Positions 36,187 to 64,000 of a DNA stretch of 64,000 nucleotides are shown here, one piece after another. The translations under genes were made by a program, and so were the position numbers. Source of the stretch: Ceratodon purpureus (taxonomy: Eukaryota; Streptophyta; Bryopsida; Pseudoditrichales; Ditrichaceae); NCBI GenBank assembly GCA_014871385.1, contig CM026431.1:15107118-15171117 (forward strand), in the 5' to 3' direction. Under the pieces are notes generated by a model. It saw only the letters and a list, made by a program, of their open reading frames with translations. It was not told the origin of the DNA and did no database searches. The number at the start of each line of letters is the position of its first letter. Within the stretch, counting starts at the first letter, position 1.

Positions 36187-36223
36187 GTATGCGTTAGTGA
36201 GTTTTGGAAGCCTCTTTCAAGTT

Positions 36224-38168: not shown

Positions 38169-38326
38169 ATCAACAATATGAGGGCTCATGGGAGCACCAA
38201 CGACATCATCCAAGTTTTTGATCGACCAACCAGTGAATGGATTTCCGTCAAAATGCATTGACCACTTGATCGATCGAAAACTTGGATGATCTTGTTGTTG
38301 CTCCCATGAGCCCTCACATTGTTGAT
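38169..38326. other. 61-nt foldback, copy C
   Basis: Arms 38169-38229 and 38266-38326 are identical to those in copy B. Confidence 0.65.
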
Positions 38327-40398: not shown

Positions 40399-40860
40399 CA
40401 CTGCAAGCGAACGGGTCGTTTCTGACCGCCGAGTTTAGTAAGAAAGTGGCCTCAGCGACAGCTTTCTGACCGGAGTGCATCGTCTTCGCGAGGGGCTCCG
40501 CTGAGGAGCACTCTTGGTCAAGTTCACCGCATAGGACAAGAAGTGGGTCCCGTCGAAAATCACAACGGCAGTCTGGGTTCGGGTGGGACTCATCCCATGT
40601 GGCAGTGCATGCTCTCTCGGTTTTGATGGTCACGTCGAGGTGGAGCTTGCGTGGAATCCCATTTCTGGTTCAATTCGATGACATGGAATGCTCCTTGCTT
40701 TTACTGCGATGACGGTATTGTGTTTGACTGAGGTACCCAAAACTAGTAAGGGACATCGGTTGGTATTGTAGTGAAGTCTGAAATTCCGAGGATAGGACGT
40801 GGACAATGGTTTAAGGACTTCCGTGGACATGTCGATGTTGACCACGTGCACCAATCCTGT
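40399..40860 (-). other. CACTA end with two open minus-strand frames of doubtful meaning
   Basis: Immediately inside the terminus, the minus strand has adjoining open frames 40854-40630 (LVHVVNIDMSTEVLKPLSTS) and 40633-40385 (CTATWDESHPNPDCRCDF), the latter crossing the terminus. They could be a frameshifted captured exon or chance. Only their size and composition support coding. Confidence 0.25.
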
Positions 40861-43066
40861 ATCAACAAATGTATTGGCTATGATGATTTACCTTAATTAT
40901 TATATCGAAATCAATTATGGGCAATGTACGCGGAATTATGTATATATATTTATAATCTCTTTTCCATAATTGTATAATATTTATTCCGAAACCAGGAGTT
41001 TCTAAAAATGGACGTGACGTCCATACAGGTAATTTCCCGGCAAGCTTCAGTTCCATTACAGAAATTGTATTATCATTGCGAATTTCAGTACATGAATTAA
41101 GGAGGATTAGTACCGGTCTTCGAATTTGACATTTGTAGCTACAGAATAGAACTACGGAAACTATCTGGCAGACAATTTCCCGGGCGACCCTGAGAATGAC
41201 TAATATAAAATTCGGTTACAGTGGACGAGAATCTAAACTACGGTATGAAGATTATTGGATCATCACTGCGACAGGCACTTCGCGTTGGACTTCACTTCGA
41301 AAAAAGGACCTTCGGATGCTGGGAGATTTTTTAACTGATCAAATGTCACAGATGTTTGTTACTTGCTCCCGGGCTCCAGTTGTAATCATCCAACACGTTT
41401 CTTGAAGTGAAATCTAGTGAGTTACGTCAAGAACAGCTGAAGAACTGCTGCGTCACAAACAAGAAGTGATAGAGTGAAATGAGAAACAGATCAAGAGGTA
41501 TGAGATGTGGGTATGCTGCCCCACACATTATATTTTAACCATATCTTGCAAAACATCATGTCCAAATTGACTTGATTTTACTATCTTCACTCCTTGAATG
41601 GAAAGAATTAAGGAGGACCGACTGATGTCTAATATGAACTGATGTGAGTTTACGGAATTTCCAAGTCAGTTAGCATCGCACCTAAAATCTGGCGGGAATA
41701 ACGCTTACTATGCTTCCGGAAGTACAACAGCGGCGCCGAGTAATCTTGCAATTCCTACCATGTCGCATATCTGTAATTCGAAGCAGAGAATTATAAGAAG
41801 CATCAACGCATACTGGAATTTCCCAAATTGTTCACAAATGGAACACTCATTATGAACTCATATGAACTCAGGTGTATTATTGTAGTGAGCATAGTACCTG
41901 GTGGACTCGCAGCTGCTCTCGTGTGCATCCGTCATCCATTAGAGGAACCATCCGACCACCTTCAGAATGTCCACGTCCTGCGGAACATGTTCGTTTTTCT
42001 TCAGAAGTGGACACACCTCACACATCGTCAATAGAAATGGCGACGTACCTTGGGAGTTCAGTAGACCGTGAGGTTTGTCGGCAGTACTTTTATGATTACG
42101 TGAATGTGTTGTATTCACCGTGAAGCTTGTCGCGGTTTTCGTCAGTTTTACTAGACCTCAACCCAGAGCCTGTAAGCAGATGATCCTCGTATTATCAAAC
42201 CCGACAAATGCGTCGTCTGATAATAGAAAGGTCCTGGACTCAACGAAACGAAGTATTAAAAGTTATGAGGGTAACATTTTCCTCACGCTACCTGAACTAC
42301 ATAGCATTCGCTCATCGAAACAGTGTAAGAGACGGTTCGAACGTTTACTTACGCCGCCTTCTGACTGCAATTCTGGATTCATGCAGTAACTGAGCATCCA
42401 CCATATGAATTGATCGCGTCCATGGACTGCAAAAAAATATATTCCGGTTCCCCGAAGTCAAGGCCTTTAAGTCCCACTACGTACAATAAATCTTTCGCGT
42501 ATTGAAGAAATCCAGCCATTAACATAATCACATAATCAGGAGGGGTTCAGTACAGCTCTAAGGGGGTATTCTCACACGAGCAGACAACGATGGGGGAAAT
42601 CGATATTTCATACACAAAATTTTCCAGGTGAAGTGAGGGTACACTGCAATGACGTTACCTGTCCCAGGTATGTACGACAAGGGGCCGTCTAGTTACCTGC
42701 ACATCCTACTTCTGTACACTTCAACTGATAGGGATGATGTCAATTTCTTCAGTGTACTACTAATTCTATCACCTCCGCGGCATGCATTGGCAATTCAGTT
42801 GTAATTGAAAGATACACAGCATTATCTGCAATCCTGATTCAGTAGGAGTAGGTATGCTAAACTGACCTCTATCTTACATGACATTGCTCTGAAATCAACA
42901 TACCTGAGGGCGTGTAAAGTGGAGAAGAGTAAGTGTTGAGCATTGCCTGCGGCTTCACTATCTTACTTCTCACCTGCTTCCCCCGGAACTCCGTTTCTTA
43001 CTCCTTGATTGATTCCGCCTGCACTCCCTTCAATTGATTTACCTCTATCATTCCAATCCGTCAGAA
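40861..43066. other. Non-coding CACTA subterminal region, no supportable gene
   Basis: Short frames around 41830-42390 are Ser/Pro- and Arg-rich and one follows a TATTGTAG acceptor, but I could not join them into a frame-consistent gene. Confidence 0.4.
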
Positions 43067-43522
43067 ATGGATAAAGCAGTGCTACTCGGTTGGTTGGCGG
43101 AGGTGTATCTCAAGAGAGAAACTCACAATTTCATCTTACCCAATGTTCCTGCACTGGCGAAGCTTTTTGAGTTTTCTAACGAGTTTTCGTGGACTGAACT
43201 TTGTTACCAGGAGGTTCTGGAGATCGGCAATGCGTCCGGGCTTCACTTTGCCCAATACTGTCGTCGTCATTCTCAGTCACCGGGCCTCAGCGGGATAAGT
43301 CCAGCGCATCCAATTCTGATCGAAGGAGACATCGCCGATTATGTTTCCACTGATCGAAGCTCTGATTCTGCTCCGTGGTCATATTCATTCCGATCTAGCG
43401 ATTGCAGTCGGAGCAGCCAAGGCTCCAGCCCTCCATCCGATACCCCAGCAAGCGAAGTGGTCGGGCCTGACTGTGCTGACGAAGTCACCTCGTCAATGAC
43501 GGCGGAGGAGTCTGGATATTGA
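43067..43522 (+). CDS. 151-aa protein of unknown function carried by the CACTA element
   Basis: A single open frame starts MDKAVLLGWLAEVYLKRETH (ATG at 43067 just after TCAGAA) and ends TAEESGY. The first 70 residues look like a small folded helical domain (LPNVPALAKLFEFSNEFSWT, then CYQEVLEIGNASG); the rest is Ser/Pro-rich and acidic, probably disordered. A start 33 bp upstream is also in frame but adds only low-complexity residues. It lies between the left CACTA end and the minus-strand TnpA-like gene. I recognise no family. Sequence character and length support a real gene; transcription and exon borders are not proven. Confidence 0.5.
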   Translation: MDKAVLLGWLAEVYLKRETHNFILPNVPALAKLFEFSNEFSWTELCYQEVLEIGNASGLHFAQYCRRHSQSPGLSGISPAHPILIEGDIADYVSTDRSSDSAPWSYSFRSSDCSRSSQGSSPPSDTPASEVVGPDCADEVTSSMTAEESGY

Positions 43523-46253
43523 GTTCCTGCTGCGAAGGAGGTCAGTTTTAGCTGAATCAATATCGAATTGCAATGGGGGATTTTAATTAGCATATATGTA
43601 CAGTACCGTCTAATAGAATCGATGAAAACCATGTTGTCCATTACATGAATGTAGAAACAGAGAATGACGACACATTGAGGAAGCAGTAACTCATTATTTT
43701 GTTTTTGTACATTTCACAAGTGAAGTCAATGGGATTAAGTATGGATTGTTAAGGCAGAAAAGATGTTTGTATGAGCCTTACTATGTTGCCCCTCCGAGCG
43801 TGAAAATGATCTTAAGCGAATTTCAGTAGAAAATGGCAGTTTAAGGAGACTGGGTCGAGCAGAGGAAACTTACGCTGCGTTTATTAGGGGGGTATGGGAG
43901 TTCTCATTGAAACAAAGCTTCTCGTACTAACCCCTGAAAATAGGATTACTGACAGAATTCGGTTTTCGAGGAAGTTTCAAGTAGGTTACAAGTTCGTAGA
44001 CATATAACTCTGCACATATTACAACACGTTCATTGATTGATTTTGATAGAAAGACAACCGATGCTTTGATAAAATAGACTCTCTTTCGTTGAAAGTAAAT
44101 TGTAATGTAAAGAACCTGAGTACTGTCGTCTGAGTATAGATGTGCCATTTTCTCTCTCGGCTGACTTGTTGCTCGTCCAAAGAGATATGTACAGCGACCA
44201 TCTCTGTTTAACTGTGGCATACACCCTGTCATCTGTGTGCTGCACATAGAGAAGCATGTCACAGAACAAACGGGATACAGGAGAGCTCAAATAATATTTT
44301 GTAGAACAAATGTAGTTGTAGTACAGCTCAATCGTTAAATAAAATTTAGTCGCCACTTCTGTGGTCGCTGGCTAATTAAAAATATTTAGTCGGATGTAAG
44401 GCCGGTCTTTAGTATTATATACCATAACAGATGACCATCTGCTAAATTATCTCCATAGAGTGTAAGTCTGCACTCAGCATCTACAATAGCAATCTGACTG
44501 AAAATCGATTGAGAAATGTATGAAGATATCAGAAGACAATGCTCTTTCTACAATTACAACCTTCACTACCCGATGCCCTAAATACAAGCATGTAATAAAA
44601 TAGAGATGGTAGTTCAAACTTGAATTGGATTAATCTATCTTAACTTCTGCAAGGAGATCTGAGACGCCACTGTATAAACAACTGATTTAAATTACGATTT
44701 CATACTGTAATGTCAGTGAAATAAGGTTTAGGGGTGTGGTCGTTACCTCAAGTGCGGTGTTCCATGCTGCGTAGGAATCACCAACCTAGAATCAAAAGCA
44801 ATACAGGAGTCAAGAGTGGTACATGTTGAAGCTTAAAACATTCAGAACAAAATGACACGTACGTTGTCCTAGAACAAAACAAAAACGGTAATGGATATAA
44901 ATAATACTGTAGGGATTCTCTCAAGGTCTGTGGTCGCATAAGAAGCTTCTGCAAACATGGTGAATATTGTGTATGAAATGGATGTATTTCTCGTACATTT
45001 AATCTGCTTTCGAAAGATAGATTAACACTCCATTCGGATTGTTCAAGACTGTAACCATCACATGTCCTAGAGTGCATATATTTATGTCCGAGAATGCTAA
45101 GTCGTGTCTAGAACTTTGTAGGTTGCGTATTGACAAACTCGACCACCCTCTATATTAAATGGGATATAATTGCCGGAAAGTAATTAGTTCAAGAGAGTAT
45201 ACGGTTCTCACAGACATCGAGATTATAAAACAATGTCAGATCCTATGAACCACTGTACGTTTTCCCAATAAACATTACAGTTCAGAGGATGAGGGATATG
45301 ACCCCCCGCAAACTGAGAACAGCTCATTCGAGGACTCACAGTGTACTGTACGATATCGTTGACGAATTCACCGTATAATCCATACGATACAACACGTCAC
45401 TACAGTCCAACGTCACTAAGGAACAGCGAAGAGAGTAAGTATGGTACCTGATGGACATGGAGCAATTCCGATCAACAGCCACTTCTTCAGGTCAAGCAGT
45501 TCACACATTATTCTTTTCAGCACTGGCTACATAATGTTCTGTAATGTGTACTGCCCACATAGTAATGTCGGGGACCGTTTTCCAAGACGTAATATTCTCA
45601 ATACATCAGTGCAACAGAAACGAATGAACTGAATTTAGTACGACACTATCTAGTCGGTATCGTTCACACATTACATTCCCAAAGTAATAAACATTAAAGG
45701 AAAAAACGAGGTCAGCTGAAATAAAAATTCCTCATTCCGGGCGATTATTGACCGCTGAGCATAAAGCAAGGACACACCATAAGACAACACCTGTACTGAT
45801 TCCAGAACTTTATCTCGAACATACACAGTCTGATTGCGGAATCTCAAATAATCTACAGGTCGCCATAATATATGTCCAACAACATACATATATGCGCGGT
45901 CTTACTCGATACTATGATTTAATTATCTTCATGTATATTAACCGGAATGCAAAATAGTTGCCGATGTCATAGGCAATACAATGGGGCTCCTCTCCGACCT
46001 GAAACACGCTCTGTGTCCAAGTCAGGACTCCTGCAACATTCAGAAGGATGGTCAATGTATGTAGAGCAAACAACGTTCACGTGGACCGTGCTTCCTGGTC
46101 ATAATAATCCGATCTACAGCCACAGAGACAGAGTGAAGAATTCACGATGATTATGAAGTTTCTCTCGGAAGTGTTGGCTCCCTTATCAAGTGAAATACTT
46201 GTTCCAAGTAATGGAATATGGAATTAAAACATACCGCATTCAACGACTACCAT
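43523..46253. other. CACTA interior without a supportable gene
   Basis: Only short frames of ordinary composition are present. No repeat array or RNA gene was recognised. Confidence 0.4.
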
Positions 46254-49200
46254 TCAGGGTTCCACAAGCTTCAGAAAGCTCGTCTTCCAGACTATGGTCG
46301 TATCCTCATCAAAAGGTCCGTCTACGGCGTCTGACATCTTCTTAATTCCGTCTCGCTGGTGATTTTGGTGCAGGACTTCAACGTCCCTATACTGTCGGTA
46401 AACATGATCCAAAGTCACTTGCTGCATTCCCGGTTCCCAAGCGACATCTCCAACGTTAGGTATCCAAACTTTGCTCTTCAGAGACCTCCATGAAGGTCCG
46501 CTCTTACCAATGCCTATTGTTTCGTTAGGGAAGTCTGGGTGTAGTATCCAGACACTGCGCTTTGGTTTAAGCGGTTCACACTGCGACAGTGAAACACACA
46601 TGTTAGTGTAAAGTTTTTTTGACGAGAGTATGTATACATTCATATGATCGGTAATGCCCTTGAAGCAAGGTAATGTAACCTTATCGCTGCGTGGCTTGTT
46701 CTCGGAGGGCGGTGGGAAATTCAAGTAGCGTGATGGGCGGATACTTTTCCGTTTCATCCTCCCTTCCGCTCCTTCTGACGATTCCTTCTCAACCTTCACC
46801 GAAGAGACAGGTAATTTCTTCTTACCGGCGACGGTGGACTTCGGTTGTTTCAGTGTGGCTCGCGGCTTCTTGGGTGCTGTCTGAGACGGTCCAATGCCTG
46901 CGTAGGTCACGAATCCGGTATAGGACAATAACATATAATTGATCAGACTTTCCGTAGTGCAGTCATCGACGAATTCCCTGATACTTATCGATCTGAACAA
47001 AGCAGATGAAACACAGTGACAATAACTATTACGGAATGGAGAATTACCTGTCTGGACAGGACGTTTGCCAGACTTCGACAAAAGGGGATCATTGTAGGAG
47101 CCAAACGCCGCCTCCACCGAACTATACTGCCGTGCAGCGACAGCAGTATCATTGCGAACGGAATCAACAAGAACAGAAGGTGATGGCTCGCGTTCCAGTG
47201 GACTTTCATTCAGTATTTCACAATCTTTGACTGAACCATCCACCTCCGTGGAGTAGGGTCCCTGATTTGGACCTTCGGATAAAAATATATCATCTGCAGT
47301 ACAGAGGAGGAGTATAATAGTGAGTGTCATAGAAATTATGGAAGGATTAGGTCCGCATCGACATATCTTCGACTGCTTCTCGACATGGATTGTTATACAA
47401 AGAGAAGTGGAATTTCAAACTCACCAGACACCGGTTCTGGTATTGGACTGCGACTAATATCGCGAGAGTGGCCAGATGCAGAAGACGCTTTCCTGTTTTC
47501 TACCTGCGGATGTCGAGGTGTGTTGGGTCGTACACCTGTATTCGTTAAAGTGTCTTGCCGGACAATGTCGTCGCTGTGGACGGAAGGTGAATCGGCAATA
47601 GACCCGCGACTCTTTCCCTTCCCTGCTTCAACGAGGTTCGCGTGCAGTTGCAGTACGAGGTCCAGCTTCTTTTCCAGACGATCCACAGTGACAACCGTTG
47701 TATGCAGCTGCTTTTCCATTGACCCGACACTTGTCACAGTTGACTCCATTTTTTTCTCCATAGATCCTTTCCACTCGATAATGCCTGTCACCGAACTCTT
47801 CACAGCTGAGAGATCTTCGCCCATAGATCTCTGGAGTGACATGCTTGGTTGCCTTCTCTGAGGCGTGACTTCAGCATTTCCCGGTGTCAAATTTGCACTT
47901 GGTTGAGACGACTGCATCAATAACTGAAGTCAATTACTAATTTATAATTCAATACTATTCAAAACCTACTCTATTAGTATGTCCGTATACATTCCAGTAT
48001 AGAGTGCGAGCACAGTCAACTTAGGTAGATGAACAATGAGTTCCGGATACGCACCGGGGTCGACAGAGTCGTCTCATTAGATGCCGGAGTGCTTCCAATA
48101 CCGAACTGTCAAGGCACATAAAACACGGACTTAGTACAATAATATTTAATGTGTTACAGTTACGTGTGGTTTCAAAGTGGAATTACATGGGACTGACTAT
48201 ACATGTCCAAATAAAAAATGCAAACATACTCTTTGGAGATGCGACCAATTATGAAGATGCCAGATTACGAAACATTGTAACACGCTGTAATAATCAAGAT
48301 GCACATTTTCACCTCTTGCACTGGTTCAACTGCTCTGCTGTCTTCCATGGGTTCCTCCATGGACATGGAGTCAGTCGTAGGGTCACCGTTTCCCCATTTC
48401 AGGAAATCCGGATCGTCATCCTCCATCATCGGCTGAGAAAACAAATCCATTAATCGTTTATACCTCATCACAACCGTATACAATTCAGAACCTGTCATTC
48501 TTTCCTAGTGTACCGCATTTCTGTATGACGTAACTTCATAAATACCTCTCTGAACTATTACATATGTAATGCCCATGTCAGGAAATTCTATAGGACCCCA
48601 ACACTGGGTACTATAATCAGATTATTGCATTGCAGGATCCTATAAATTCTCACATCAAGGCTGATGACACTGCTCATTTTTTCTTAAAATCAGGTGCGGA
48701 GGAATGCAAAAAGAGAGTAAGAATCTCACTTCCCAGCTCCCTCCGCTATCGCTTGCTGTTTCTTGTTTGGTTAGATCCGCTGTTTTCCTCTGTTTTTTAG
48801 CGGCAATTCCAGCATCACGATGCCTTTTGGCTTCCTCCTCTGCCTCCGTCGTCACCCAGTATTTCACTAACCTAGGGAAACTTTTCGCAGGGCAATCCGG
48901 ATGCTTTTCCCCTCTGCCGGTGGCAATCCAGTGCTTATGGTAAACGTATCTCACGTTCTTCATGCAAGTCTCGATAAACCACAGAATATAGTCCTTTCGC
49001 AGTCCGTCGTCGAACTCAAACCGCCTGGCCAGATCCTCTTTCAGGTTGTTCACCATTTGCACGGGATGATCTTGGAACTTTATGACGTCAATATCGATAT
49101 ACATGCTTGCAGTGGCTTTTATGTATTTGTGGACGAACAGCCTACAAGACGGATCTATTTCACCATTTGAGTCGCTTGGAACCTTCATGGGCCAGACTTT

Positions 49201-51835
49201 GGAATTCTCTGTGAAAATTTTTTTAGCCAAGCGTTGCTGACGCTTTTGCGCGGTCTTCTTCTGCTCTGAATCGGGTGTCAATTGAATCGGAGGTTGGAGC
49301 ATTCCGTACTCCACTGGAGGAGCACACGCGCCACTGGAATTCTGATTAGCAGCCCACGGTGGACGCTCTCCATGAGCTGTGCTGTAACCTGATGGCGATC
49401 CACGCTCTGCCTGACCCCACATAGGCCACGGCATCCCATTCTGATACCAGTATGGCATACCCAGAGGTCCCATAGCCCCTCTCACAGCGTCCTCGTTGGT
49501 AGCAGCATTGCCAGAGTTTGATGACCCCCCATCTCCATTTGACTTCGAGGAGTCCATGGATGTCTTCTGCATTCCGGTGATACCAGCGGGGTTCATGAAC
49601 TGCATTCCTTGTTGAAACTGTGCCATCATTGACGGTGGGACATGGTGAGGGGGGAAACCACCGTACATGAATTGCAGAGGATTGCTTCCACGAGTCGGTG
49701 GGGTACCAGTGTCAGGGTAAGGCACGTTATTTCCCCATGGCGGCATGAAAAGAGGATTCGGTGTGTAGCCTTCGCTCTGAGTCGTCTCTCGTACAGATGC
49801 ACCCTACAAGCAACCACTGTAGTCTGAGTACATGTATGAAGTCCCGTTCACATTCAGCTGCAATTCAAGTGCGCACACGGCGTTCATTGTATTTACATTG
49901 GAAGTGGACATGGTCTGTATTTTGAGTATACAACAAAATTACCTGGTACTGCCGACGCTTAATTATTTATTGTGTTAGATATCGCACAGAATAGACTGTC
50001 AAAATATAAGACATACCTTAGGATGAACAGGCCTCAAAGCAGGTGCTGATGGATCCATGTCGAATGAGATGTGGGTGTTATTCTCCGGAAAATTGAATTG
50101 AATAGTAACCGGAAATCCTCCCGTGACCTGCAAAAGATGTATAAATGTGTCAGACATTGGAACAAGACATATTAGAACGCCACAACATGTCAATATTACA
50201 TGGCTCTCACGTATGATTCGGTACTACCTATGGAATTCGTTTACAAAGTTCAACTGCTTCGTGTACGCAGTGCATACTCCTCCAGCGATTCTCGGCATAC
50301 ATGGAATATGAACTACATATAAACGTGCATATGCCTCGCCTATGCACAGAATACAAACGGAAATCCTGAAAACAATTAAACCTTCACCGTATATGTCAGG
50401 GGATGTAGTTCTCTGCGAAAACTGTTCGACAGTGGACATGGGGAATGCGTAGTACTAACATGCCGGTAAGACATGAGTAAACTTGGTTCTAGGGTTTAGG
50501 AATGGCAGTGGTTTGAACAGAATGATTCGAGAAGAGAAGAGGTGGCCATCGCGACCGATCAAGTAACCGCAAAGGGACTACACCAATTACCCTCAAACGG
50601 ATTCAGTTGCGGATAACCAAAAGATCTCTGCTATTATGTCTAAACTGATTGTTCCGATTCTAATCATTCTAGAAAATTAAATGAGCCCAGTAGAAATGAA
50701 GGTCGTACATACAAATTCCTTCAGAACTGTGCGTGCAATTCCGGCCCTTCGAAATTGTCCCCCTTAATTAGGTCATGCACCATGGTTGGGCACGTAATGG
50801 ACAACTGTGACGATATGAACCCGTGGGTAGTGAGTTATTCACTGACGTCGATTCTTAGCATCAATGGACAGCGGACGAAGAAATACGTAATTAAGGTGAA
50901 GATGACGCCCAATGATATATGTGCAACGAAATCCCTAAAACCTTCTGAAGTTTAGATTTGAAATCCCCCGACGGATAATCTGAAAGTTGTGCAGCGGCGT
51001 ACCTGAGAGATTACTTGAGACGTCGTTGACGAGTTGTCTTCATTAGGGATGCAAATTGTGATGGTCTTCACAGACGTAGAGGCACAACGAGGGTTTTCAG
51101 ACACACCTGCACTCCATGGTTGTGTCGTACTACACGCCATATTCTCTCCAAAGTATAATATTCTCCTGCGCCGGCAACACACTAAACAAGACAGAGTACA
51201 GGATAAAATCTCTGCACCGCAATGCCAAAATTGGACAAACCAATAAAGAGCCGCCGTCTTCAGCAGAAGGAATAAGTGAAGACTTCAGTAGAGCAGAAAA
51301 TAACGTCAGATAGCTACAAAGGAATTGAGGCTGTTACGCAGTACATTCCAAATTCTGGCTACCACAATGCAACACGACGTACCAGGGCATATGTAAAAAG
51401 TACCCAACTACTGATGCGCTGGATGTCTCCGCCTAGGGCTTCTACTTGCCCGACGACGTTACCTCCCTACACATCTAGGGAAAGCAGAGTATGGTGAGCC
51501 CTACGGAGGCGAATATCGAAATTTTTTAGTTGCCACAGAAAACTATCCCTCGATATTTGTCAGGGTACACGGGATTTGTCCTCCAGCTCGAAATGGAGTT
51601 TGCGACATAAATGCGCCTCCAAACACTGCTGCATCGAATGTAATGCAGAAGATCCACAGCTAAAATAGACAAAGGGCGTCTCCAACACAACATGGTCACT
51701 CACCTCGTGCACGCCCAAAACATACACTCCTCTTAGCAGAGTGGCAGCGTACTGGGACTTCCGCTTCTGGGGTCGTTCTTTAGGCGACAGTTTTGGACAG
51801 TAAGCACTTCCCGCACTTCTGGGTATCGCTTCCAT
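46254..51835 (-). CDS. TnpA-like accessory protein of the CACTA element, 11 exons, 1009 aa
   Basis: Exons read on the minus strand: 51835-51704, 51659-51571, 51165-51003, 50127-50017, 49803-48730, 48432-48313, 48105-48055, 47923-47425, 47293-47048, 46897-46680, 46580-46254. All junctions are GT-AG, and phases agree throughout (3030 nt). The start MEAIPRSAGS is followed by a basic KERPQKRKSQ. Exon 5 has a Pro/Met/Gly-rich stretch, then residues about 350-505 (RLAKKIFTENSKVWPM, FPRLVKYWVTTEAEEEAKR) resembling the Transposase_24 (Ptta/En/Spm) family. A coiled coil follows (MEKKMESTVTSVGSMEKQL). Basic segments (KKPRATLK, GRMKRKSIRPSR) and a C-terminal domain (WILHPDFPNETIGIG, MQQVTLDHVYRQYRDVEVL) complete it. 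TnpA-type proteins bind subterminal repeats and assist TNP2; that role is inferred. An additional exon between 51003 and 50127 is possible. Confidence 0.65.
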
Positions 51836-51931
51836 TGTCTCTGTAGTCCTCTTCGATCCCTCTTGGCATTATAGGTTCCTCTGCACAATCACGCCGCGTT
51901 CCGTACACACACCAAGTACTTGCGTTGAATC
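51836..51931. promoter_or_regulatory. 96-bp head-to-head intergenic region, likely bidirectional promoter
   Basis: The start codons of the minus-strand TnpA-like gene (51835) and the plus-strand Cys-rich gene (51932) are only 96 bp apart. The stretch is pyrimidine- and C-rich on the plus strand (TCTTCGATCCCTCTTGGC) with no clear TATA box. If both starts are right, the two genes must share control elements, and the 5' leaders are very short or overlap. Confidence 0.5.
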
Positions 51932-52645
51932 ATGTACTCCCTCGGCTACGACAATGAATTCGGATTGAATTCGGGGATTCGAGATCGATTCGGTGGAGAA
52001 CCGAGGTGGATTGACACTGTGATCCGCGAGTACGAACTAGGTGTTCACGGACCTCTCCACAATTGTGAGGGATACTGCCTGTGCATCGCATGCTCGCGTA
52101 TCGCGTGGCTTCGAAACCCAATCTGTAACTGCCCGTATGGAAGACAGTGGAGACGCTCTTTCTCAGTTACTGACGCCATGAGACGCAAGTGGTATAGGTG
52201 TCGTTGTTCGCCAAAAACAGAGGACATGCCTACATCGTCGGATTGTCTCTGTTTGCTCCTTTACCCGACGCAGGAGTTTGTCATCACGCCTGCACGTACA
52301 ACGAGCCTGCCTTCAGAGATAGACGACAGCGAATACCAGGGAGGGTATTCGTCGGGTGAGATTAGCCCATCTAAAGTTGCAAGGCTACTGAGCATCGTAG
52401 CTAGAATGGAGCACGAGGCGAGGGTGACGAATGGTTTAGAGGCCGGTTATTCGGGTGACACTGAATTACTACATGAAGTGTCACAGACCGTTCCCCTCCC
52501 GGACTGCGTTTCCACGCAAAGGCCATATAGCAATACAACCAACTCCGGGAACGGGATGGAGGACTTGAACGACACAGCTTCCTCAAAAGTGACGACTACT
52601 AAGAGAAAGCACGATGAAGTAGGGGACGATAATAGTAGTGGATAG
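51932..52645 (+). CDS. 237-aa Cys-rich protein of unknown function carried by the CACTA element
   Basis: An uninterrupted frame starts MYSLGYDNEFGLNSGIRDRF and ends GDDNSSG. Residues 43-92 hold a dense Cys cluster (HNCEGYCLCIACSR, PICNCPYGR, WYRCRCSPK) that could bind zinc. A second half rich in Ser, Thr and acidic residues follows, with SEIDDSEYQGGYSSGEISPS, a short helical LLSIVARMEHEARV and a terminal basic TTKRKHDE that could act in nuclear entry. No intron is needed. It is transcribed away from the TnpA-like gene and toward the transposase gene. A DNA- or protein-binding regulator of the element is a reasonable guess, but I recognise no family. Confidence 0.6.
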   Translation: MYSLGYDNEFGLNSGIRDRFGGEPRWIDTVIREYELGVHGPLHNCEGYCLCIACSRIAWLRNPICNCPYGRQWRRSFSVTDAMRRKWYRCRCSPKTEDMPTSSDCLCLLLYPTQEFVITPARTTSLPSEIDDSEYQGGYSSGEISPSKVARLLSIVARMEHEARVTNGLEAGYSGDTELLHEVSQTVPLPDCVSTQRPYSNTTNSGNGMEDLNDTASSKVTTTKRKHDEVGDDNSSG

Positions 52646-54865
52646 TTGGGGACTTAGGTCCTCCCCTCTGCAGACAAAGTCGCAGTTCACGTTATCGAAT
52701 TCCTTTAGTGTCTTCAGATCGTCTGTGTCCATGGCTCCAGTCTGGACAGTACCTTCTCGTCTGTGGGGAAACGGTTTAGAGCTGCGTACTGTACGATAGC
52801 GGATTATCGGTACATCCTGCATTACGTAGGTGGGGAAACAGGGCAACAGAGACGATGTACACAGATTCAGGGTTGTGGGTTTCGATCGTGAAGGCTTCGT
52901 TTTTTCATCGAGAAACTACGTGTACTTGGAGGAATAGTAACTGGGTTTCCCCAGAATCTGGGCTTTCTTGAATACAAGTCCTCTGTACAAATGCTTTGAC
53001 AATAAAGTGTCAATTTCATGGTACATGTATTGATTCGCCTCGGACGCTTCGATTGTTGTTTCCTGTTCGCAACAGCACATAGCATCAGAAGGGTATGTTT
53101 TGATTTATTCTTAGAATAGGCGCGGTTGTCTGGCGTGATTTAGGTTAAACGCGCATGCTCGACAGGCGTTACGTGATGGATTTCAATTAGTGGGTCTATA
53201 AATCTCCAATGCAGCATCTTCAGAAAATGTATTCTATACATTCGGAGAAGAACGTCAACGCCGCAGTGTACCACTATCTCCCCAAGATTTGAGTACGCAC
53301 CTCCGAGTCGTTATGTAGTGTCGAAGACGCGAGCTTCTGCTCTCGACAGGAAGAAATATCGTTCACTATTTAGAACACTCCCTTGAATAGGTTCTGGAGA
53401 ACTCTGATAACACCTACTGTCGAGGAATTGCTCAGTTACTGTTTTGTGCTCCAGAATTGCGTGGACGATGCAGGACTTCTGCCGATATCTTGTCTACTAC
53501 TATGTTTCAAACGTCTACGTAGAGTCCTCCTTGATGCTGTAAATATCGTTTACTTTGTGGGACGTTGTGGTGGTTCTTATTATTGTCACACACGTATAAC
53601 GAATTCCAGTTGATACTTCCGTGTTCACTAAGTGGTTGCCGTTTTGACAGAGAGGCATGGAAATCCAATGTTCAATTCGTATCTCCAGGTGTGGGGGTCC
53701 CGGGCGAGCCTGAAATGGACTTGCGGTATGTATAGTAGAAGCCCATGCGCCGGAATCTTATCATTCAGTGGACGATGACGCTTCCCTGCAATTTGAACGG
53801 AAAGGCTTCTAAGGGTCCAGGTATGTTAAACGCAATCATTTTCCTTATTTTACCTGCCTGTATCACTGGCGAAATTTTTTATAGAATTCATGCTATCTGC
53901 ACGGGCTTGAACATGCATTAGATCTGCATTGCACCGACGCTTTGAATAAAACAGCTGAGATGCTTTCCTCCTATTCACTGTTTCTTTGTATGTGCGTGTA
54001 GAGATTGTTTGAATTGACCGGGGTCAGACCTTGCTATACAGCCGGAGTACTCTTTGAGCGATTTATATCAGAAGGTATGAAACTAGGTTTCAAGTTCTGG
54101 AATAGCCATCTTTCGCCAACCTCGAGGATGGAAGCTTTTCAGAAAAGCAGTTGGCCCAGTCAGCCACTGATGGTGAGGCTGCTTTCATTCACTTGAGCAA
54201 CTCATAAACTTGCACGGTGTTCTGCACTGCATAATCCACTTCTCATCACTTTGTCATTTCAACTGATGGGGACCGTGTGTTGTTCTGGACCGAAATAGGA
54301 CAATCTACAGATGCTACTGGTATCGAAAGAGCTCGCGTTTTGGATGATTTGTTTGCATACGGTTTCCCGGTTCCTGTGAAAGCCACCAACGGAAGTCCAG
54401 AATTTGACATCTCGCCTACGAAACCACAGGTACCTGTCGGACCCGTCCTAGTGTCGGAACTTTCAAGTTTATCCAATGCATATTGAAATCACATTACCTG
54501 TGGACACAGCTTAAGTTCAGGACACGAACGTCCTCTGTTCTTCATCCTTGGAGACATATATATGAACGTTCTCTGCTCTTCACCCCTGGCGACATATATA
54601 TACATATGGAAAGGGTTCGAGGAAATTCTGTACAGCAAAAACTTATTCTATGACTACTGTATGATGACCTTTCCTAAACTATTGTTCTGTACAAGGTAGG
54701 AACAACGGCATTCTGCCAGACCTTTTGGAGGTGGAATCCCAGTGGGATAGGGGAATGCTTAAATTTTATTCAAAAACCGCACCAACAGATGAGGAGCCCG
54801 TAGAGAAACTGCATCTTCGGTAAAACAGTCGTCTCATCCATCGACATAAAATCTGCATACAGGTA
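52646..54865 (+). other. Possible unassigned exons upstream of the transposase gene
   Basis: Exon-like frames occur at 53720-53820 (after TATAGTAG, before GTATGTT), at 54002-54180 after GTGCGTGTAG (RLFELTGVRPCYTAGVLFER) and at 54250-54486 (VLFWTEIGQSTDATGIERAR, then DDLFAYGFPVPVKATNGSPE). The last ends in its own stop. I could not find a splice plan that joins them in frame. A minus-strand frame at 52846-52583 also looks protein-like. They may be a further small gene or remnants. Confidence 0.3.
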
Positions 54866-57800
54866 ATGGACGCGAGTATTCGGCGTCATGCTCCAAGTGA
54901 GGGAAGAGTATTGCGGCGAGGCAGGAAACTCACGGACAGAGAACTCCAGCGAGCGGAAAGAGAGCACTTGCCGAGACTGCGGTGCCCTTGTAATCTACAC
55001 GTCAAGGGACCGAGATCCAACATACTATTACGTTCTTACCGGAGGTGCTTGGCAAAGAACGGAAGACATCCATGGTATTATGGTAGTTCCGAGGTACTAC
55101 TTACGACTACCATACAGACGGTCTTTCAAATGTATTGGCTGTGGCACATATATATTTTTCCGTCTCTGTCATTGATGTCCCACATGCTGTATTCGTTTCT
55201 CGGTACATCTCGATTGCTTCATATATCGTTCACGAATCGTAATAACCTTACATTCCTAGTGTGGATAAGATGCACGCTCGGAATCATTTACATAAGTATG
55301 GCATGTGTTCTAGGACTGAGTTGCCATAGCCTAAATGGGGACGATGATTATATGCTGATTTCTCGAGAAGTATACACATGGCAGGGGTACGAGCCAGATG
55401 AGTCTGACAACGAGTGGGACGACCACATACAATGGTATCACGGTGCACGGGCTACGGAGAACATTAGGAGCGTTAGACCGCGCACCATGGATTCGGGCAT
55501 CGACCTGAACGAAATGATAATCGAGGCATACGATCTTGGGGACCGCAATCGCGAAGAGTCTCGGTTAGAAATGGATGGCAGCGGCATGGGGGAGGAGAAT
55601 CACCGTGAGGAGTCGGACGGTCCGAGCCATAGCCAGAGGTCTCCACATGCGGACAGGGGTGCGGAATATGTATCGCGCGTTGACCCGCCCAGCAGTATAG
55701 GTTCCCCAGTATTGAACCAGTTCGCAAGACCGCAGAGTACATGCGATACTGACGACCAGACACTCGTTTCCGAGAACCCATATGGAACGGGCAACATGTA
55801 TGATAATTCCAACCATCCAGGCTCCCAGATTCCAGACTACAATGTACATCCTGACTTGGATTCTGCACCAACTTCTGAGGACCAATCCAGTGATTCCTCT
55901 CTATCAGACGTTGAGGACCTGGAATGGGGTGACAGCGAAGACGAATTCGATGCCGCCATTACGTCTTTGGAGGAGGCGGCCGCGACCCCCCTCTTCGAGG
56001 GCGCTGAAGTGTCGTCAATGGCAGCAACATACATCATGTTAAACTCGGCAAAATTACACGGGTGCACTAATGTCTATATTGACGAGATGTTCCGGAACTT
56101 AAGCCAGTCGCTTCTCCCCAAACCGAATTCCCTGCCTACATCTTACCGGGAAGCAGCGGATTATGTGAGGAAGTTGGGGCATTCCTACAAGTCCTTCGAT
56201 GTATGTGTCAATAACTGTACATTGTTCAGAGAAGACTTGAAGGATGCAACTTTCTGTCCACGGTGCAGAGCCCCCCGAAAGAAAAGAGCTGGTAAATCCA
56301 TGGTTCCACAGAAGGTGTGCCGTTTCTTTCCTCTCACCCCACGATTTAAGAGGATTTTTCGGAGCCCCATGCAGGCGGCTTCCATGACTTGGTGGTTGTT
56401 TCAACAGGGAGAGGTGAATTTCATGACTCATGTCTCCCACTCCAAGCAGTGGGCATGGATCAACGAAAGGTACAGTACAGAGTTTGCGTATGATCCGCGA
56501 TGCATAAGGCTTGCACTTGTTGCAGATGGGTTTAATCCGTCGTCTGACAAGAGAAGTACGTATTCCATCTGGCCTATCATGTTCCTCAACTACAATTTAG
56601 CACCATGGCTGACTACTAAGAAGTATTTCATTATCTTAGCCATGCTTATCCCTGGCCCGAGATCAGTTACGTCTGAACACTTCGATGAGTACATGGGACC
56701 CGTCATAGATGAGTTATTAGAGCTCTGGACAGTGGGCATCTACTGCATGGACGCAGCAGCGTACAATCAGTCATCACATTTTATACTGCGTGCTATGGTC
56801 ATCTGGACCATTGGTGACTTTCCAGCATATGGTTTATTGGCCGGCACGACTACAAAAGGGTTTCACGGTTGCCCAGTTTGTGGTGGAGGGTTTCGATCCA
56901 GGAGAGCAAAGTTACTTCATAAAAATGTGTTCCATAGCTGTGCAAGGCGGTTCCTCCCTGAGGATCACCACATGCGGATGGATGTGGCAAACTTCGGTAC
57001 AATTGAAGACCGTCATGCACCGGATCCTGTGTCTGGAGATACGGTTCTAAGATGCGGTTTGGAAAGAGAGCAGTGGCTCAGAGACGTCGGAGGGCCTCAG
57101 CAAGACGACCCTGTACGCCGGAATGGAATAAAGCGAGTTTCTTGTTTATATCGTCTGCCATATTGGAAGGTACGGGTTCTCCCTTAAATATTGTGCATCT
57201 GGGTCGTATTGTGTTTTATTCTCCATACGGCAGGTTTTCGGTTCGCGACGTTAGCGGCAGTCAGTAAGCTCTGGTCGGGTCAGTTTCTGCACTATTTCAT
57301 GTACATCACCACGGAAGTGTTCAAGTGCGAATAGCGTCCCCAATTTTCAGGTGTCCATTCCAGTTGTCTCTGGCACACTCTGTTCTTATGTGCTCCAGGA
57401 CGGGGTTACAATCTCTGTTTTTGTAAACGAATTATGTGAAAACGGTGCCGTGATTGTGGTGTGAAAGATTACGAAGGCCTGAATCATGCCAAGGGTACAT
57501 TGACATGCCAGGGCTACGTCGCCATCTCCATGGCGTAAAGGTGAATTTTGCAGAATTAATATAACGGTACTATCACTTCATACGGTTTTCCGGATCGCGT
57601 ACTTGTAATATGTCGTAGGCAGGTAATGGGATTGCAGTCGTTGACTTGGATAGTGAACTTCAGAAGACACTGCACTCAGAATCGTGTTTATATGGAGTTG
57701 TCGCTGGGAGATGCAGTTCCATATATCCACGGGATATACGTGGTCATGAATTCGAGATTTTCGATCAGGATGTCCATCGGGGAGGTTTGAGTCGTTCCCG

Positions 57801-60531
57801 CTCTTGAAAGGTGGATTACATATTGACCAACACTATCAACTCCAGCCAGTACTTCATAGGGTGTTGAGTGATCTTCGAGGATTGAATTGAGAAATCGAAA
57901 CATTGTACTACAGCAGACTCCTGTAGACATGGAAGTGTAAGGGTAAAAAAATTTGTGAGAGAATTCGCAATGACGTTTTTTTGGTGTAAGACAGTGGGTT
58001 GGAGTAAGATTGCGAGCAATTTTGAAGGGAAATTCGGCACCCTTCAATTCTCTCTCGAATTATAAAATTGTGGTCTATGTTTTGCATACGATTATTGGAG
58101 GAGCTTCAGTTTTTCTCATTCGGTTCCTCATCGCAGGACTGTGGCACAACGTATTCGCTAGGCTTGTTTTTTACACAGGGTTCTGAAACATATGAGACCT
58201 CTTCGGGTATTTCTGTATACAACCGGGTGTGCATCCGAGGTAAGGGGGATGTAATTGTATGACACACCTTGTATCGTGGGGTACTCCCGAGAGGCATATA
58301 AATATTTGTGTTCGCCGGAAGTCAGTATTGGATCATGTGTACCGGATCTCTGTCTGCACTCAGTATCGCGAGAGTCAATTAAAGTCATGCGCATTCCTTG
58401 ACAGATTAATAACGTATTGTTTTTTATTTTTTCTACAGGACCTACCAGTGCGACATACTCTCGATGTAATGCACATCGAGAAGAATGTCGCTGCAACAGC
58501 GGTGGGATTTTTACTTGGTGATTTGGACACTGTGGCTGTTCGAAAGGATGTCCAGCAGGAAGGTGTGATGCCGCACCTGCATTTGCTGCCCGATGAAGAT
58601 GGTGCAACCTTCATAAAACCGCATGCCCCATATGTTCTCCGCAAGCAGGAGAGAACGAGGCTCCTTCGGAACATACGCTCTGTACGTACTCCGCAGGGAC
58701 ACTGTGCCAATTTCGAGAAGTTAGTCAACTTAGAGAAAGAAACGTTTCAGTTCATGAAAACGCATGACTGGCATGTATTGCTCCAAGAAGTGTTGCCTGC
58801 GTCCATCCGTGGATTGTTGCTAGAAGGTGTGGAAGTTGCTATAATCAGACTGGGCCATTGCTTTAAGCGCATTTGCTCCAAGGTCATCGATGTGCGGGAG
58901 CTGCCGGCGTTGCAAACTTACGTGGCTGAGACCATGGCACTTCTCGAAATACACTTTCCTCTTGCTTTCTGGAACGTTATGCCCCATTTAGTTTTGCATC
59001 TTCCCAGAGAACTCTATTGGTGTGGACCCGTCCATGCACGTTGGATGTATTGCGCAGAAAGATACATAGGTCATCTGAAGTCTCTTGTCCGTAACAAAGC
59101 GAGGCCAGAAGGTTCTATCGCTATGGGGTACATCATGGAGGAGGCACTGGGCTTTGTTACAGAACACTTTCGACTTTACCCCGTGCGAGCTCGCGTTATA
59201 TGGGAAATGGACGATGATGAACGACAAACTGGTGAAGTTCTGGAAGGTAAAGGAATTAAAAGACGCTGGACCGAAGGGGAGCTCGAAGAACTGCACGAAC
59301 ATATTATTCGCCATTCAATCATCACTGAAGGCTTCTACAGGTATTTTCTCTAGGCTTATGTGCCGTGGATTATGTTCAGTATTCCAATACCAAGTGTTGG
59401 GAGTTTCAGGTACTGTCGTAGGACATGGTATAGAAGAGTGGGTAATACACTGATTAGTTTCGCAGAGTTGTTAATTGTTTCGCAATGTGCCAAGGATATA
59501 AAGCAATTCTATTTGTGTGTCCATGTTCATGTGTGGAAAATTACAGCGAGTACCTGGTCGACCGCGACTCACGTGCAGGTAGAGCCCGCAGCAGATTTCC
59601 GAAATTCCACCAATGGCTGGAGGACCGGGTGTCGGCAATGATTTTTTCTGGTGAAACTGTCGATGGCTCTGTGGTAACCATGTCGCGCATGCCTAATCCA
59701 ACTGTCGAGCACTATGCATCCATGTACGCTTACGGGCTCCACTTCAGAGTGGACGACGAGAATGGTCGAAGCCATGTCTCGTTTGATTCAGGTGTGGCAT
59801 GTATCGTGAACCAGACATGCAGATCTTCAAGGGCCGACAGGAACCCCATTGAAGCGGCGCTGAAGTACATCGGGATTGTGAAAGATATAGTGCAAGTGGA
59901 ATATGGTCATCTGAGTTACATCGTATTGAAATGCTCTTGGGTGAGGCCGAACCTGGGAGGAGCACAGACCATTCGACAGGACCATCACGGATTTTGGTCT
60001 GTTCGGTATGACGCTCGTCAGAGTCCACCCGTCGAACCGTACTTGATGCCTAGTCACGCGAAACAGGTATGTCTCTGCAATGCTTATCATATTTCATTGT
60101 AGTCTATAAATTCGACAACTTACCTGATCCTACTTTAATATTTACGGTATGTAATGTGTTTGGTGCAGGTTTATTTTGTGCAGGACCCTAACGATCCTGA
60201 TTGGAAAATAGTGGTCGATGTTGAACCGCGTGCAAGACGGATCACAAAGGAATCCTCCGATGAGAGGTTGAGTGCCCCTGGCCGATCTGACGCTACCGTC
60301 AACTTCTGTACGGGTGAGGCTTCCTCTGGACGAGGGAGAGACTTTGTCACGGAGCCTGTAAGGGTTGTGGACGTCGCAAATGTTTTGGGAGACGAAGAAT
60401 GCGATGAAGAGGCTGCGCATGCGGAGATTTTCTTCGATGATTTACACAACGGAGAGGCACATGATATCGAGGAACCAGAGGGAGAGTCAGAGCACCTTGT
60501 TCCTCAACCAGATCGTTCCTGGCTGTTCTGA
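54866..60531 (+). CDS. TNP2-type CACTA transposase, 5 exons, 1265 aa
   Basis: Exons 54866-55093, 55385-57169, 58439-59340, 59547-60066 and 60169-60531 join in frame (3798 nt), all with GT-AG borders. Exon 1 has the Cys-containing Transpos_assoc-like LPRLRCPCNLH. Exon 2 begins GYEPDESD, has LNEMIIEAYD, an acidic linker, and the Transposase_21 core: CVNNCTLFREDL with CPRCRAPRKK, ADGFNPSS (Asp about 457), YCMDAAAYNQSSHFILRAM (Asp about 532), WTIGDFPAYG (Asp about 554) and FHGCPVCGGGF. Exon 3 starts DLPVRHTLDVMHIEKN and carries DUF4218 (WCGPVHARWMYCAERYIGHL, VRNKARPEGSIAMGYIMEE). Exons 4-5 give DUF4216 (NPIEAALKYIGIVKDIVQVE, YFVQDPNDPDWKIVVDV). The enzyme would cut and rejoin the element in the nucleus. 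No stops or frameshifts are seen, so it may be active. The 55094-55384 stretch is open but hydrophobic and is better read as an intron. Confidence 0.9.
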
Positions 60532-61474
60532 CAGGTAAGCTTTAAGTAACCATGCACTGTATATATGATGCAATTGTAACTTCCGGGGAGGATTGCTTCT
60601 TCTGTTACTCTGAGGAATTCGGACTTGGATGCATCACCCTATTGTCTTGTTTTAGTACTGTCTTCCTGCCATTGACCATAACCGTAGATTTCATGTCCGA
60701 ATTTAGCCGTCAACCACCAACATCCCGGCGTTATGCAAGGGCCATACGAGAACCATAATTTAGGCTTTCATTTGGGACATAGCGTTTTTTACAATGCAGT
60801 TTGTTATCGCAGATTGCACATGGACTTCGTGCTTATCCGTTTGTCTAAGGCATTGCAGATCGGCATTACCTCTGCTGTAGAGGCTACATCCGCTTCTCGC
60901 CTCCAGTTAAGTGCTTCTTATCTTTATGTATACTCGTCTACATAAGTCCATTTCCTTGGCATGCAAGTAATCTGGTAACCAGAACTCTCGGACCTCGTAA
61001 GTCCACCGATACTGGACACATGTAATTTTGCGTGTATATCAGTACTCCAGGAAGTACGGTATGAGTATGTGCACTGTAAAGATGAGTAATTATTTCAATG
61101 TAGACCAGGCTTGTGACCGCTTCCTCCGGTCGACATATAATGACAGCTGATTTGATCCTTTACTTTGTGATGAATTGACTGAAATGACGACCAAGCAGTA
61201 ACTAAGAGTTCACTACATCATCAGTATTAGTGACTGCTGATGTGATTGTCAACAGTCATTGCACATTCACTTCACTTTATCTAGAATGTCGTGTCTTCTG
61301 CTCCCTGCACATCTTGTCTTCAGGATTTTCTCATCATCTCTTCGACTGTGATGCAGGAGGCTGATAGATGTTACTTCGAAGCGTTTCCATTTCAAGGATT
61401 TGGAGTACGATATTTCATCAGAAACTAGTCTACTGCCATCCCGGTATAATTGATCTCCGGGTTCTTACTTGCAG
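60532..61474. other. CACTA interior without a supportable gene
   Basis: This is the 3' flank of the transposase gene. Only short, unremarkable frames are seen. Confidence 0.4.
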
Positions 61475-61865
61475 AGTGCGTATTCATTTCCGTGGTGGAG
61501 GTTTCACTGAGGCTCTTGAACATCCCCGATCAGGTAAGCGCAGAGGTGGTGAACTCCCCCGTTCTAATTCAGGTTCTGAGCGATGTGCGTTGTTCAGTGG
61601 ATCTTCTTTTAAGCTTTCCAGTAATTAAGGAGCCGACGTTTTGCATGCCGTGGGTTCCTTTAGCACATTTTCCCTTTGAGAACGGCGTGCGATATACTTA
61701 CCACCATCTACTTCATATACTTATCCGTGTTAGTATTTGTATGATAGGAATTGGCGTCCTACCTCTAAGTGAATGCATTGGGGTTTGGTCCGGTACTGAG
61801 ACGACGCACACTGTCATGGAGAATTCACAGTTCACGCGCTTGCTGATGATCTTCGTTTTGTGCAG

Positions 61866-63025
61866 ATGTCGTTGAATACCTCCGGAGCCATGGAGGGCGA
61901 TGGTTCCGCAGCATGGTTTCATATATCCAGAGGCTTGAACAACCGTGGTTATGTTCCTGGATGTCCCAAAACCGATGCTGACCATCTACCACTATCCATT
62001 GTATCACAAGCCGAGTGCTGTGCGAGATGGAAGAAGGACGCCAATGGATTCAGATACGCATCGGAGGAGAGTATGGAGAGCCCGAGGATGCAGGACAGAA
62101 TTGAGTCCTTGTACGAGGAGACGCACTTTCGCCCAACTAATCGGACGAAGTCAATTGGGTTATCATTCGCGAGGGGAATTCTAGCAGAAAAGAAGGGATA
62201 CGCTGTGAACTGGGCGAGGTATGCTGCAATTCAATTTGCACGCTACAAGAAGCGGAACCTGAAAATCCATTCTTTCGGGCCGGAACATCGTCACATGCGC
62301 AACAGAGGGCGAGACCATGAGTACCGCTTTGACCCTGAGAAGGGGTGTGTTGTGCATGACCTAGTCGGGGCTGAAGACGATTGGAGATTGAACCGCGCAT
62401 TCACCAGCCATGACCCTGCTCCCAACGGTACAATGTACGATATGCGCGAAATTGTGGTACCTTCTCCTTCGGAAGATATTAAGCGACCTCTTTATAGAGG
62501 ACTGAGACGCAACAACGGTGAGTACAGTTATAAATGTGTCCTTATCAAAGACGTTACTGGTTTTTGCTAATTGTTTCCCACTTTTAGCAGTTGCAGAGGG
62601 CTTAGTACATAACAATTCCTAATAGTGAAGACGATTGAATATATAATTTGGAACATCGTTTTTTACCAGTGCCTTATGCAATTCTGACGTTGTTACTATG
62701 TGGTTATGCAGCGTCGGAGCGACTTTCTGTGACTGGAGCCAGCGGGGGAGCCGTTGAACATGGAAATTACAGTGCTTCTTCTGACAAAGTGGCTCCCGCA
62801 GAAGGTATGTACTCCCTCGAAGTGAAATGTGGTTGTAATTATCCGGCAATCTGATGAATTTCCCTTTTCCCCGTCTTCTATAATGCTGTGCACCTTACCT
62901 AAAATGTTTTCGGAGCCGTTCCTTTGAAAAATCACGGATCAAGCATGAATGCAAGACATGTGGATTCAGAATGTTCTCTATGTCGCAATGCAGGAGCTGC
63001 ACGGGCGAACGGTGCCGAGAATTAA
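61866..63025 (+). CDS. 258-aa protein of unknown function carried by the CACTA element, 3 exons
   Basis: Exons 61866-62517, 62712-62804 and 62994-63025 join in frame with GTGAGT, GTATGT and TTATGCAG/CAATGCAG signals. The protein starts MSLNTSGAMEGDGSAAWFHI. Its middle is well ordered and basic (CARWKKDANGFRYASEESME, FRPTNRTKSIGLSFARGILA, KKGYAVNWARYAAIQFARYK, HRHMRNRGRDHEYRFDPEKG), suggesting a nucleic-acid-binding domain; the C-terminus is Ala/Gly/Ser-rich and ends GAARANGAEN. The ATG directly follows an acceptor (TTTTGTGCAG), so there is an upstream exon: 61475-61533, with good splice signals, reads FISVVEVSLRLLNIPDQ in the same frame and may be coding. The family is not recognised. It lies downstream of, and parallel to, the transposase gene. 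Confidence 0.55.
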
Positions 63026-64000
63026 GACAGTGGATGCGAGGGATCTCTGGTAATGTACAAGATGTTGGGGAGCCTCCTTCGTCAATTATGAAATCCGGGC
63101 AGCCTGAAGACATTGCTCACTATGATAGCAATTTTAGTTTCTGGATGATATAGAATGAGAGATTGAACTGCCATTGTGACGTTTCTTTTTTTGGTAATCT
63201 CAGTTCCTGTCTGCGGCATGTCATTAGGAAATACTGTTATCAGTTCGGGGTGATAATGTAGTACGTAGCCGAGGTCGTGAAGAAGAGTCATGTACTGGTT
63301 CAGATGTTTCATGGTTCCTGTCCATTTTCGAGTTTTCTCTTAACAACATCTACGTCCTCTGGAAATTTCACTTTCGGATAGTCCTGTAAATGATGAAGTC
63401 TTCACCATGTCTTTGTTTCCATTTTAAAAACATTGTACTCCGAATATTCCTGTATTGAACTAATGTTGTTTCGGAGTCCTTCATGTACCTTGCATCTAAT
63501 CCACATTTCGTGTGTTTTGTCGTACTGTTTACCGAGTCAGAGAATTAGTACACACATAGAGTTGCAAAATTCTTATGTATGCTCGAATATTCATTAATTG
63601 GAATATAATCTTCTGAATTGCAGTTGGGAACACTGATTTCCATAATTATATGTGTGAAACGGTAAGTATATCGATGAATGTTCATTTTAATATTCTGAAC
63701 AGAAATATAAATTGCCATGTTTGCAAATTAAATAATCGTTTACCAGATACCCTAAAACCGTAATCCGTTTTTGGAAAGCATTATATCATGACTCATTACA
63801 TCAGACATTGAATTCCTTTAATCTTCATATACAATAAACTAAAAAAAATAAAAAATTATTCAAATATCAAAACTACAGGAAGGTAATATGAAGTGTGTAA
63901 GTAATACTAATTTCTAAAAGAGAACATTGCGAAATTTCCACACAGAAAGTGTAATTCCGAATTACCAATATTCCTTATAAATTAAAAATATTAATGTCAT
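63026..64000 (+). other. AT-rich CACTA interior with a possible 38-nt exon at 63625-63662
   Basis: TTCTGAATTGCAG before 63625 and GTAAGTAT after 63662 are strong acceptor and donor sequences around a 38-nt stretch, suggesting a small exon of a gene continuing to the right or a non-coding exon. The last 300 bp become markedly AT-rich. Confidence 0.3.

Follow-up and report, generated by a model that had tools for sequence, protein, structure and literature searches.

The window analysed here is a stretch of 64,000 nt of Ceratodon purpureus DNA (GCA_014871385.1, contig CM026431.1, positions 15,107,118-15,171,117 of the forward strand), and its part from position 40399 onward holds a putative DNA transposon of the CACTA (En/Spm) superfamily. 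The first base of the CACTG of this element is exactly position 40399. Its left terminus, CACTGCAAGCGAA (40399-40411, forward strand), was delimited by a break of homology at 40398/40399 and by comparison with the En/Spm terminal repeat, CACTACAAGAAAA (PMC7210773), to which it is equal at 10 of 13 positions. The CACTA/CACTG terminus, one of the features of the superfamily, is thus present at the left end, the only end inside the window. When the window was compared with itself by BLAST, the left flank of the element (38076-40398) was found to be near-identical to the segment 14226-16564, and this match ended exactly at 16564 and at 40398. Global alignment of both flank copies revealed two mismatches in 2,323 aligned sites and a single gap of 16 columns. 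After the shared ...TTTCT, the copy lacking the element reads ACAGCTCTAACAC and the other reads CACTGCAAGCGAA. Because both copies are near-identical up to 40398 and other DNA follows from there, the 14226-16564 copy with its continuation (14226-16700) looks like an empty site and the 38076-40398 copy like the filled one, and the sequence from 16565 onward would correspond to the right flank of the element. The same comparison suggests a 3-bp target-site duplication, with TCT at 40396-40398 presumably its left copy; the right copy would be located outside the window.

Another feature of the superfamily, a TNP2-type transposase, is also present. Its gene was modelled on the forward strand with five exons (54866-55093, 55385-57169, 58439-59340, 59547-60066 and 60169-60531), encoding 1,265 amino acids without any internal stop codon. 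The motifs ADGFNP, LDVMHIEKN and AERYIGHLK were found in its translation, and we take them to be candidate DDE motifs, the choice of the catalytic residues among them being our assumption. Three Pfam domains, each above the Pfam cut-off, were recognised in the protein: Transposase_21 (expectation value, E, 4.7e-54), DUF4218 (9.4e-30) and DUF4216 (5.1e-11 over positions 2-73 of 73). The value for DUF4216 was obtained with exons 4 and 5 joined; with exon 4 and flanking intron bases the match was below the cut-off (3.7e-5). Since the match improves on joining both exons, the last splice junction is supported independently, a kind of support that the other junctions of this gene and of the TnpA-like gene do not have. 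The order of the three domains is that described for ORF1 (open reading frame, ORF) of CACTA elements (PMC8978399), and the five exons are ordinary because one to six exons have been reported for 64 CACTA transposases (PMC4158355). Intron 1 is placed within a continuous open frame of 787 codons; it is optional, and the true protein may be longer.

A second gene, provisionally named TnpA-like, is located at 46254-51140 on the reverse strand, and it and the TNP2 gene are divergently transcribed. Its model consists of nine exons (51140-51003, 50127-50017, 49803-48730, 48432-48313, 48105-48055, 47923-47425, 47293-47048, 46897-46680 and 46580-46254) encoding 927 amino acids without internal stop, and all of its eight introns are of the GT-AG type. 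The gene displays a strong codon-position bias, even under a model trained on TNP2 alone. Such a bias was seen in the TNP2 gene as well. Its last two introns are inside one continuous frame of 386 codons, so that three modelled introns in all (intron 1 of TNP2 and introns 7 and 8 of this gene) lie in open frames and may not be introns. The name rests on the setting of the gene, its exon structure and the high divergence of tnpA published for different species (PMC8195511). An apparently intact TNP2 gene and a second, TnpA-like gene had both been proposed in the preliminary description of this DNA, and the open reading of the two models, together with the three domains of the first, bears this out. 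About 790 bp (51141-51931) separate the TnpA-like gene from the divergent ORF of 237 amino acids described below, and this space is a possible shared promoter region.

Three extra genes, each open and free of damage, had also been attributed to the element. The corresponding ORFs do exist on the forward strand: one of 151 amino acids at 43067-43522, one of 237 amino acids with 11 cysteines at 51932-52645, and one of 258 amino acids, modelled with two GT-AG introns, at 61866-62517, 62712-62804 and 62994-63025. The region was shuffled 200 times at the dinucleotide level, and the lengths of the three ORFs were compared with those of the open frames obtained. The longest frame per shuffle had a mean of 161 codons; its 95% point was 209, and its maximum 243. 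The first of them (169 codons from stop to stop) is at chance level, as a frame of at least 169 codons appeared in 59 of the 200 shuffles. The 238-codon frame of the second exceeds the 95% point and lies below the maximum, and the 256-codon frame of the third is longer than those of all shuffles. Codon-position bias was evaluated against 300 simulated open frames for each ORF, either untrained or trained on TNP2, on TNPA or on both, the lowest attainable p being 0.003. In that order of tests, the 258-aa gene gave p values of 0.017, 0.003, 0.017 and 0.003, and the 151-aa ORF values of 0.16, 0.03, 0.06 and 0.03 (0.033 more exactly). The bias of the 237-aa ORF was not significant in any of them (0.42, 0.15, 0.37 and 0.26). 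Five control ORFs, antisense or overlapping, were chosen by hand from the 37 listed ORFs; three of them also reached small p values for untrained periodicity (161 aa, 0.003; 141 aa, 0.02; 137 aa, 0.04). The trained, frame-specific measure separated the controls better, and the 141-aa control still gave 0.06-0.18, near the 0.03-0.06 of the 151-aa ORF.

A separate codon-usage score placed the true frame of each of the three extra ORFs above its own other five frames. Of 266 simulated ORFs of at least 120 codons, none reached the score of the 151-aa ORF, and the 237-aa ORF surpassed their 99% point. However, the best of 70 ORFs of at least 80 codons in the left flank reached 0.091, versus 0.087 for the 151-aa and 0.037 for the 237-aa ORF, and the flank segment 4197-4361 also outscored both (17.2 versus 16.4 and 15.2). 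In addition, the codon-usage model obtained from one TnpA exon gave TNP2 a score of -0.118, the mean of the simulated non-coding ORFs being -0.136 under the combined model. The codon-usage model generalises poorly and, therefore, more weight was given to the codon-position test. On these grounds the 258-aa gene is supported as coding, the 151-aa ORF is a weak candidate for a gene and the 237-aa ORF is doubtful as one. Consequently, of the three extra genes first proposed, the longest is supported, and the two others may or may not be genes.

A serious alternative, falling only a little short of an even chance, is that the ORFs of 151 and 237 amino acids arose as open frames by chance or are mis-drawn parts of longer genes, so that only three genes are present here. 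It agrees with the frequency of frames as long as the 151-aa ORF among the shuffles, with the p values of 0.15-0.42 of the 237-aa ORF and with the flank ORF and flank segment that surpass both in codon usage. It has to face the fact that in both the true frame is the best of six and scores above all, or above the 99% point, of the simulated ORFs, that the length of the 237-aa frame is above the 95% point for longest chance frames, and that the 151-aa ORF gave 0.03-0.06 in the three trained tests.

The extra proteins could not be assigned to any family. No match was obtained for the 258-aa gene in Pfam at E<=10 nor in NCBIfam at E<=1, and among the three ORFs the only weak match in these databases, not a meaningful one, was that of the 237-aa ORF with FeThRed_B (E 0.98). 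A sequence search of the PDB yielded one match each for the first exon of the 258-aa gene (E 0.092) and for the 237-aa protein (E 0.37), neither of them meaningful. Single-sequence structure prediction on 216 residues of the first exon of the 258-aa gene was uninformative, with a mean predicted local distance difference test (pLDDT) score of 30.6. The possibility that the extra proteins derive from TNP2 or the TnpA-like protein, or are akin to each other, was rejected, since the best cross-match had an E of 0.32. Relatives were also sought in viral and prokaryotic contigs, where eukaryotes are not expected. None was found there for TNP2 exon 2 in either set (seven prokaryotic pattern matches, none confirmed by tblastn), nor in the viral contigs for TNP2 exon 3 or for the first exon of the 258-aa gene (one pattern match for the latter, not confirmed by tblastn).

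The right part of the element inside the window (63026-64000) shows a falling G+C content, and the right end would lie beyond it. Within 63401-64000, where no ORF of at least 100 amino acids is present, the G+C content starts at about 42% and is down to 23.5% over the last 200 bases. No inverted mate of the terminus was found in the window: a search with a 17-mer allowing up to three mismatches gave one match, the left end itself. The expected right flank was likewise absent after 40399, as four exact patterns of 10-15 bases matched only at 16562-16573. Because both the expected right flank and the mate of the terminus are absent from the window, the CACTA insertion is longer than 23.6 kb, provided that the break at 40398/40399 is its edge; to this extent the start at 40399 and the size above 23.6 kb given in the preliminary description held. 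At 49105-49114, ten bases match the terminus perfectly in inverted orientation; this site was rejected as right end, since it is within a TnpA-like exon and the expected flank does not adjoin it. The sequence predicted beyond 64000 would contain an inverted terminus reading ...TTCGCTTGCAGTG or very nearly so, followed by TCT and then by ACAGCTCTAACAC, as at 16565.

Taken together, these data make it quite probable that the DNA from 40399 to 64000 represents the greater part of a large CACTA DNA transposon, apparently autonomous, which inserted very recently in one copy of a repeated host segment. The element apparently combines a divergent two-gene core with at least one extra gene. Cut-and-paste would be its most likely mode of movement. 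In this scheme the TnpA-like protein would assist TNP2, a transposase of the DDE type, in cutting at the CACTG termini, and 3 bp of the target, probably TCT, would be duplicated on insertion.

Several points weigh against this interpretation. Neither the right terminus nor the target-site duplication was seen within the window, which ends inside the element, and the element is known here from a single copy and from its left part only. The N-terminal Transposase Associated Domain was not found in TNP2 by the Pfam search. The TnpA-like protein lacks a supporting Pfam family, its single match at E<=10 being at chance level (E 0.18). The splice sites of both genes were chosen by hand among GT-AG sites so as to keep the frame open; hence their phase agreement is partly by construction, and most exon borders are inferred. 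Finally, closely spaced subterminal repeats are usual in CACTA elements (PMC8978399). Four stretches of 602-5,802 bases from the left end were compared with 60 Markov-simulated sequences, and none of them contained a 7- to 10-mer more frequent than the simulated maximum, a test that degenerate repeats would escape. Two copies of CGGTCAGAAA are found in the first 74 bases of the element, and a few other 10-mers occur twice in its first 1.1 kb, as they also do under the Markov null. To judge by this test, the left end would depart from the textbook CACTA form in its subterminal repeats.

As judged by the two differences in 2,323 sites beside the element, the insertion would be later than the separation of the two flank copies, and it looks very young. 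Gene conversion between the copies could make their separation look younger than it is. Along 9174-16564 and 33083-40398 the identity rises stepwise toward the insertion, from 90.5% to 92.9% (in a short piece), 97.7% and, at last, two mismatches in 2,323 sites, a pattern that suggests patchy gene conversion or repeated duplication. In an insertion as young as this suggests, there would have been little time for passengers to decay and, therefore, open extra frames do not show that they serve the element. For this reason, the argument initially put forward, that undamaged extra genes must be kept for the benefit of the element, is weak.

The 258-aa gene may belong to this lineage as an accessory gene or may have been captured. 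For the extra genes as a whole, one tentative explanation is that they are host genes or gene fragments acquired by transduplication and carried as passengers without any role for the element. Host gene fragments are known in CACTA elements, as described in PMC8978399 and PMC13317346, and passengers would still be intact in such a recent insertion; a captured conserved host gene would, however, be expected to keep a known domain, and none of the three has a recognisable family. It is also possible, and no better than that, that they have long served a CACTA lineage as accessory genes, for example in regulation or against silencing, with a role that might be comparable to that of VANC in VANDAL elements. 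This would fit a 258-aa gene that is coding-like and without known family, the enlarged CACTA families of Chondrus crispus with four to five ORFs (as reported in PMC6431247) and the anti-silencing genes described in another transposon group (PMC10398659). Against it, neither a second copy nor a homologue appeared in the viral and prokaryotic contigs mentioned above, and the only tandem repeat reported in 40399-64000, two 38-base copies at 54526-54601, does not resemble the tandem motifs described as targets of VANC (PMC10398659). A bolder version, which we regard as rather unlikely, would be a lineage of giant CACTA transposons with standing accessory genes of unknown families, the 258-aa gene first among them, alongside the divergent TnpA-like gene and acting, for example, in expression control or counter-silencing. 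If the 258-aa gene were recurrent and under purifying selection, it would represent a new class of proteins encoded by CACTA elements. Whether accessory genes serve transposition or are passengers could be studied well in this giant CACTA copy, which is apparently autonomous, looks very young and lies near what seems to be its own empty site.

The element could also be a composite, in which nested transposons or host DNA make up part of the 23.6 kb. The fall in G+C content to 23.5% at 63.4-64 kb and the location of the right end outside the window are compatible with this, and nesting of transposons is common according to a general statement in PMC8978399. Nevertheless, 40401-64000 had no match elsewhere in the window at E 1e-8, and the interior contains only seven pairs of inverted repeats, all of them short (20-28 nt, 71-84%). 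Single-copy or solitary insertions would escape such comparisons, and we consider the composite structure improbable. No Rfam match was obtained at gathering scores. That 40398/40399 is a breakpoint of a segmental duplication or an assembly joint instead of an insertion edge is very improbable. The flank does belong to a complex array of repeats spaced some 23.9 kb apart, but the break coincides exactly with a CACTG terminus that shares 10 of 13 positions with the En/Spm repeat.

The large size and multiple ORFs of the transposon proposed here are unusual for CACTA elements, yet they have precedent. At least one extra gene does place the element beyond the ordinary one- or two-gene CACTA form, as first suggested, but enlarged multi-ORF elements are already in print. 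In Chondrus crispus, enlarged En/Spm families of 16-20 kb with four to five ORFs instead of one to two have been described (Kojima, Bao and Jurka 2013, as cited in PMC6431247). Like the element studied here, they belong to the CACTA superfamily and carry extra ORFs; this element is longer (>23.6 kb), and the likeness is one of description only. Tgmt* of soybean, a putative autonomous CACTA element of 20.5 kb, contains tnp2 as well as TNP1 domains and has a target duplication of 3 bp (PMC2613891). One large gene of 24 exons is described for both of its products (PMC2613891), whereas TNP2 and the TnpA-like gene of the present element are two genes, divergently transcribed, and at least one further gene accompanies them. 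According to the same source, En/Spm, like Tgmt*, makes both products by alternative splicing from a single unit; En/Spm of maize measures 8.3 kb and Tam1 of snapdragon 17 kb. En/Spm and Tam1 have a two-protein system as proposed here, with TnpA or Tnp1 made from many exons and without similarity between the two (PMC2613891). The En/Spm-like terminus is shared with this element, but the subterminal repeats that TNPA binds in En/Spm (PMC2613891) were not found at its left end.

Jozin CACTA elements of Chenopodium, as described in PMC8978399, have Transposase_21, DUF4218 and DUF4216 in ORF1, as here, and have gained domains and captured gene fragments. Most of them measure 8.3-10.1 kb, and that of C. 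quinoa 16.5 kb, of which 5.55 kb are a satellite array (PMC8978399). The Transposase Associated Domain, Transposase_24 or Peptidase_C48 is recognised in Jozin (PMC8978399), whereas none of these was detected here. With the VANDAL elements carrying VANC (PMC10398659), the element would share the idea of an extra anti-silencing gene; they belong to a different transposon group, and the comparison is one of role only.

The DNA to the left of the element (1-40398) is a repeat array with copies near 1, 11819 and 35750 (94-95% identity) and a related copy at 27099 (about 83%). Within it, a large unit occurs at 9174-16564 and again, about 23.9 kb further on, at 33083-40398. Nested near-perfect palindromes, with arms of 495 and 360 nt that are 97-98% complementary, occupy 20404-22419 and are possibly a foldback element. 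Finally, a long inverted-repeat pair of about 740 nt (79%) is located at 23703-25803, with its outer edge at a run of 31 C and tandem repeats of 42-43 nt between the inverted arms, and may be another mobile element.

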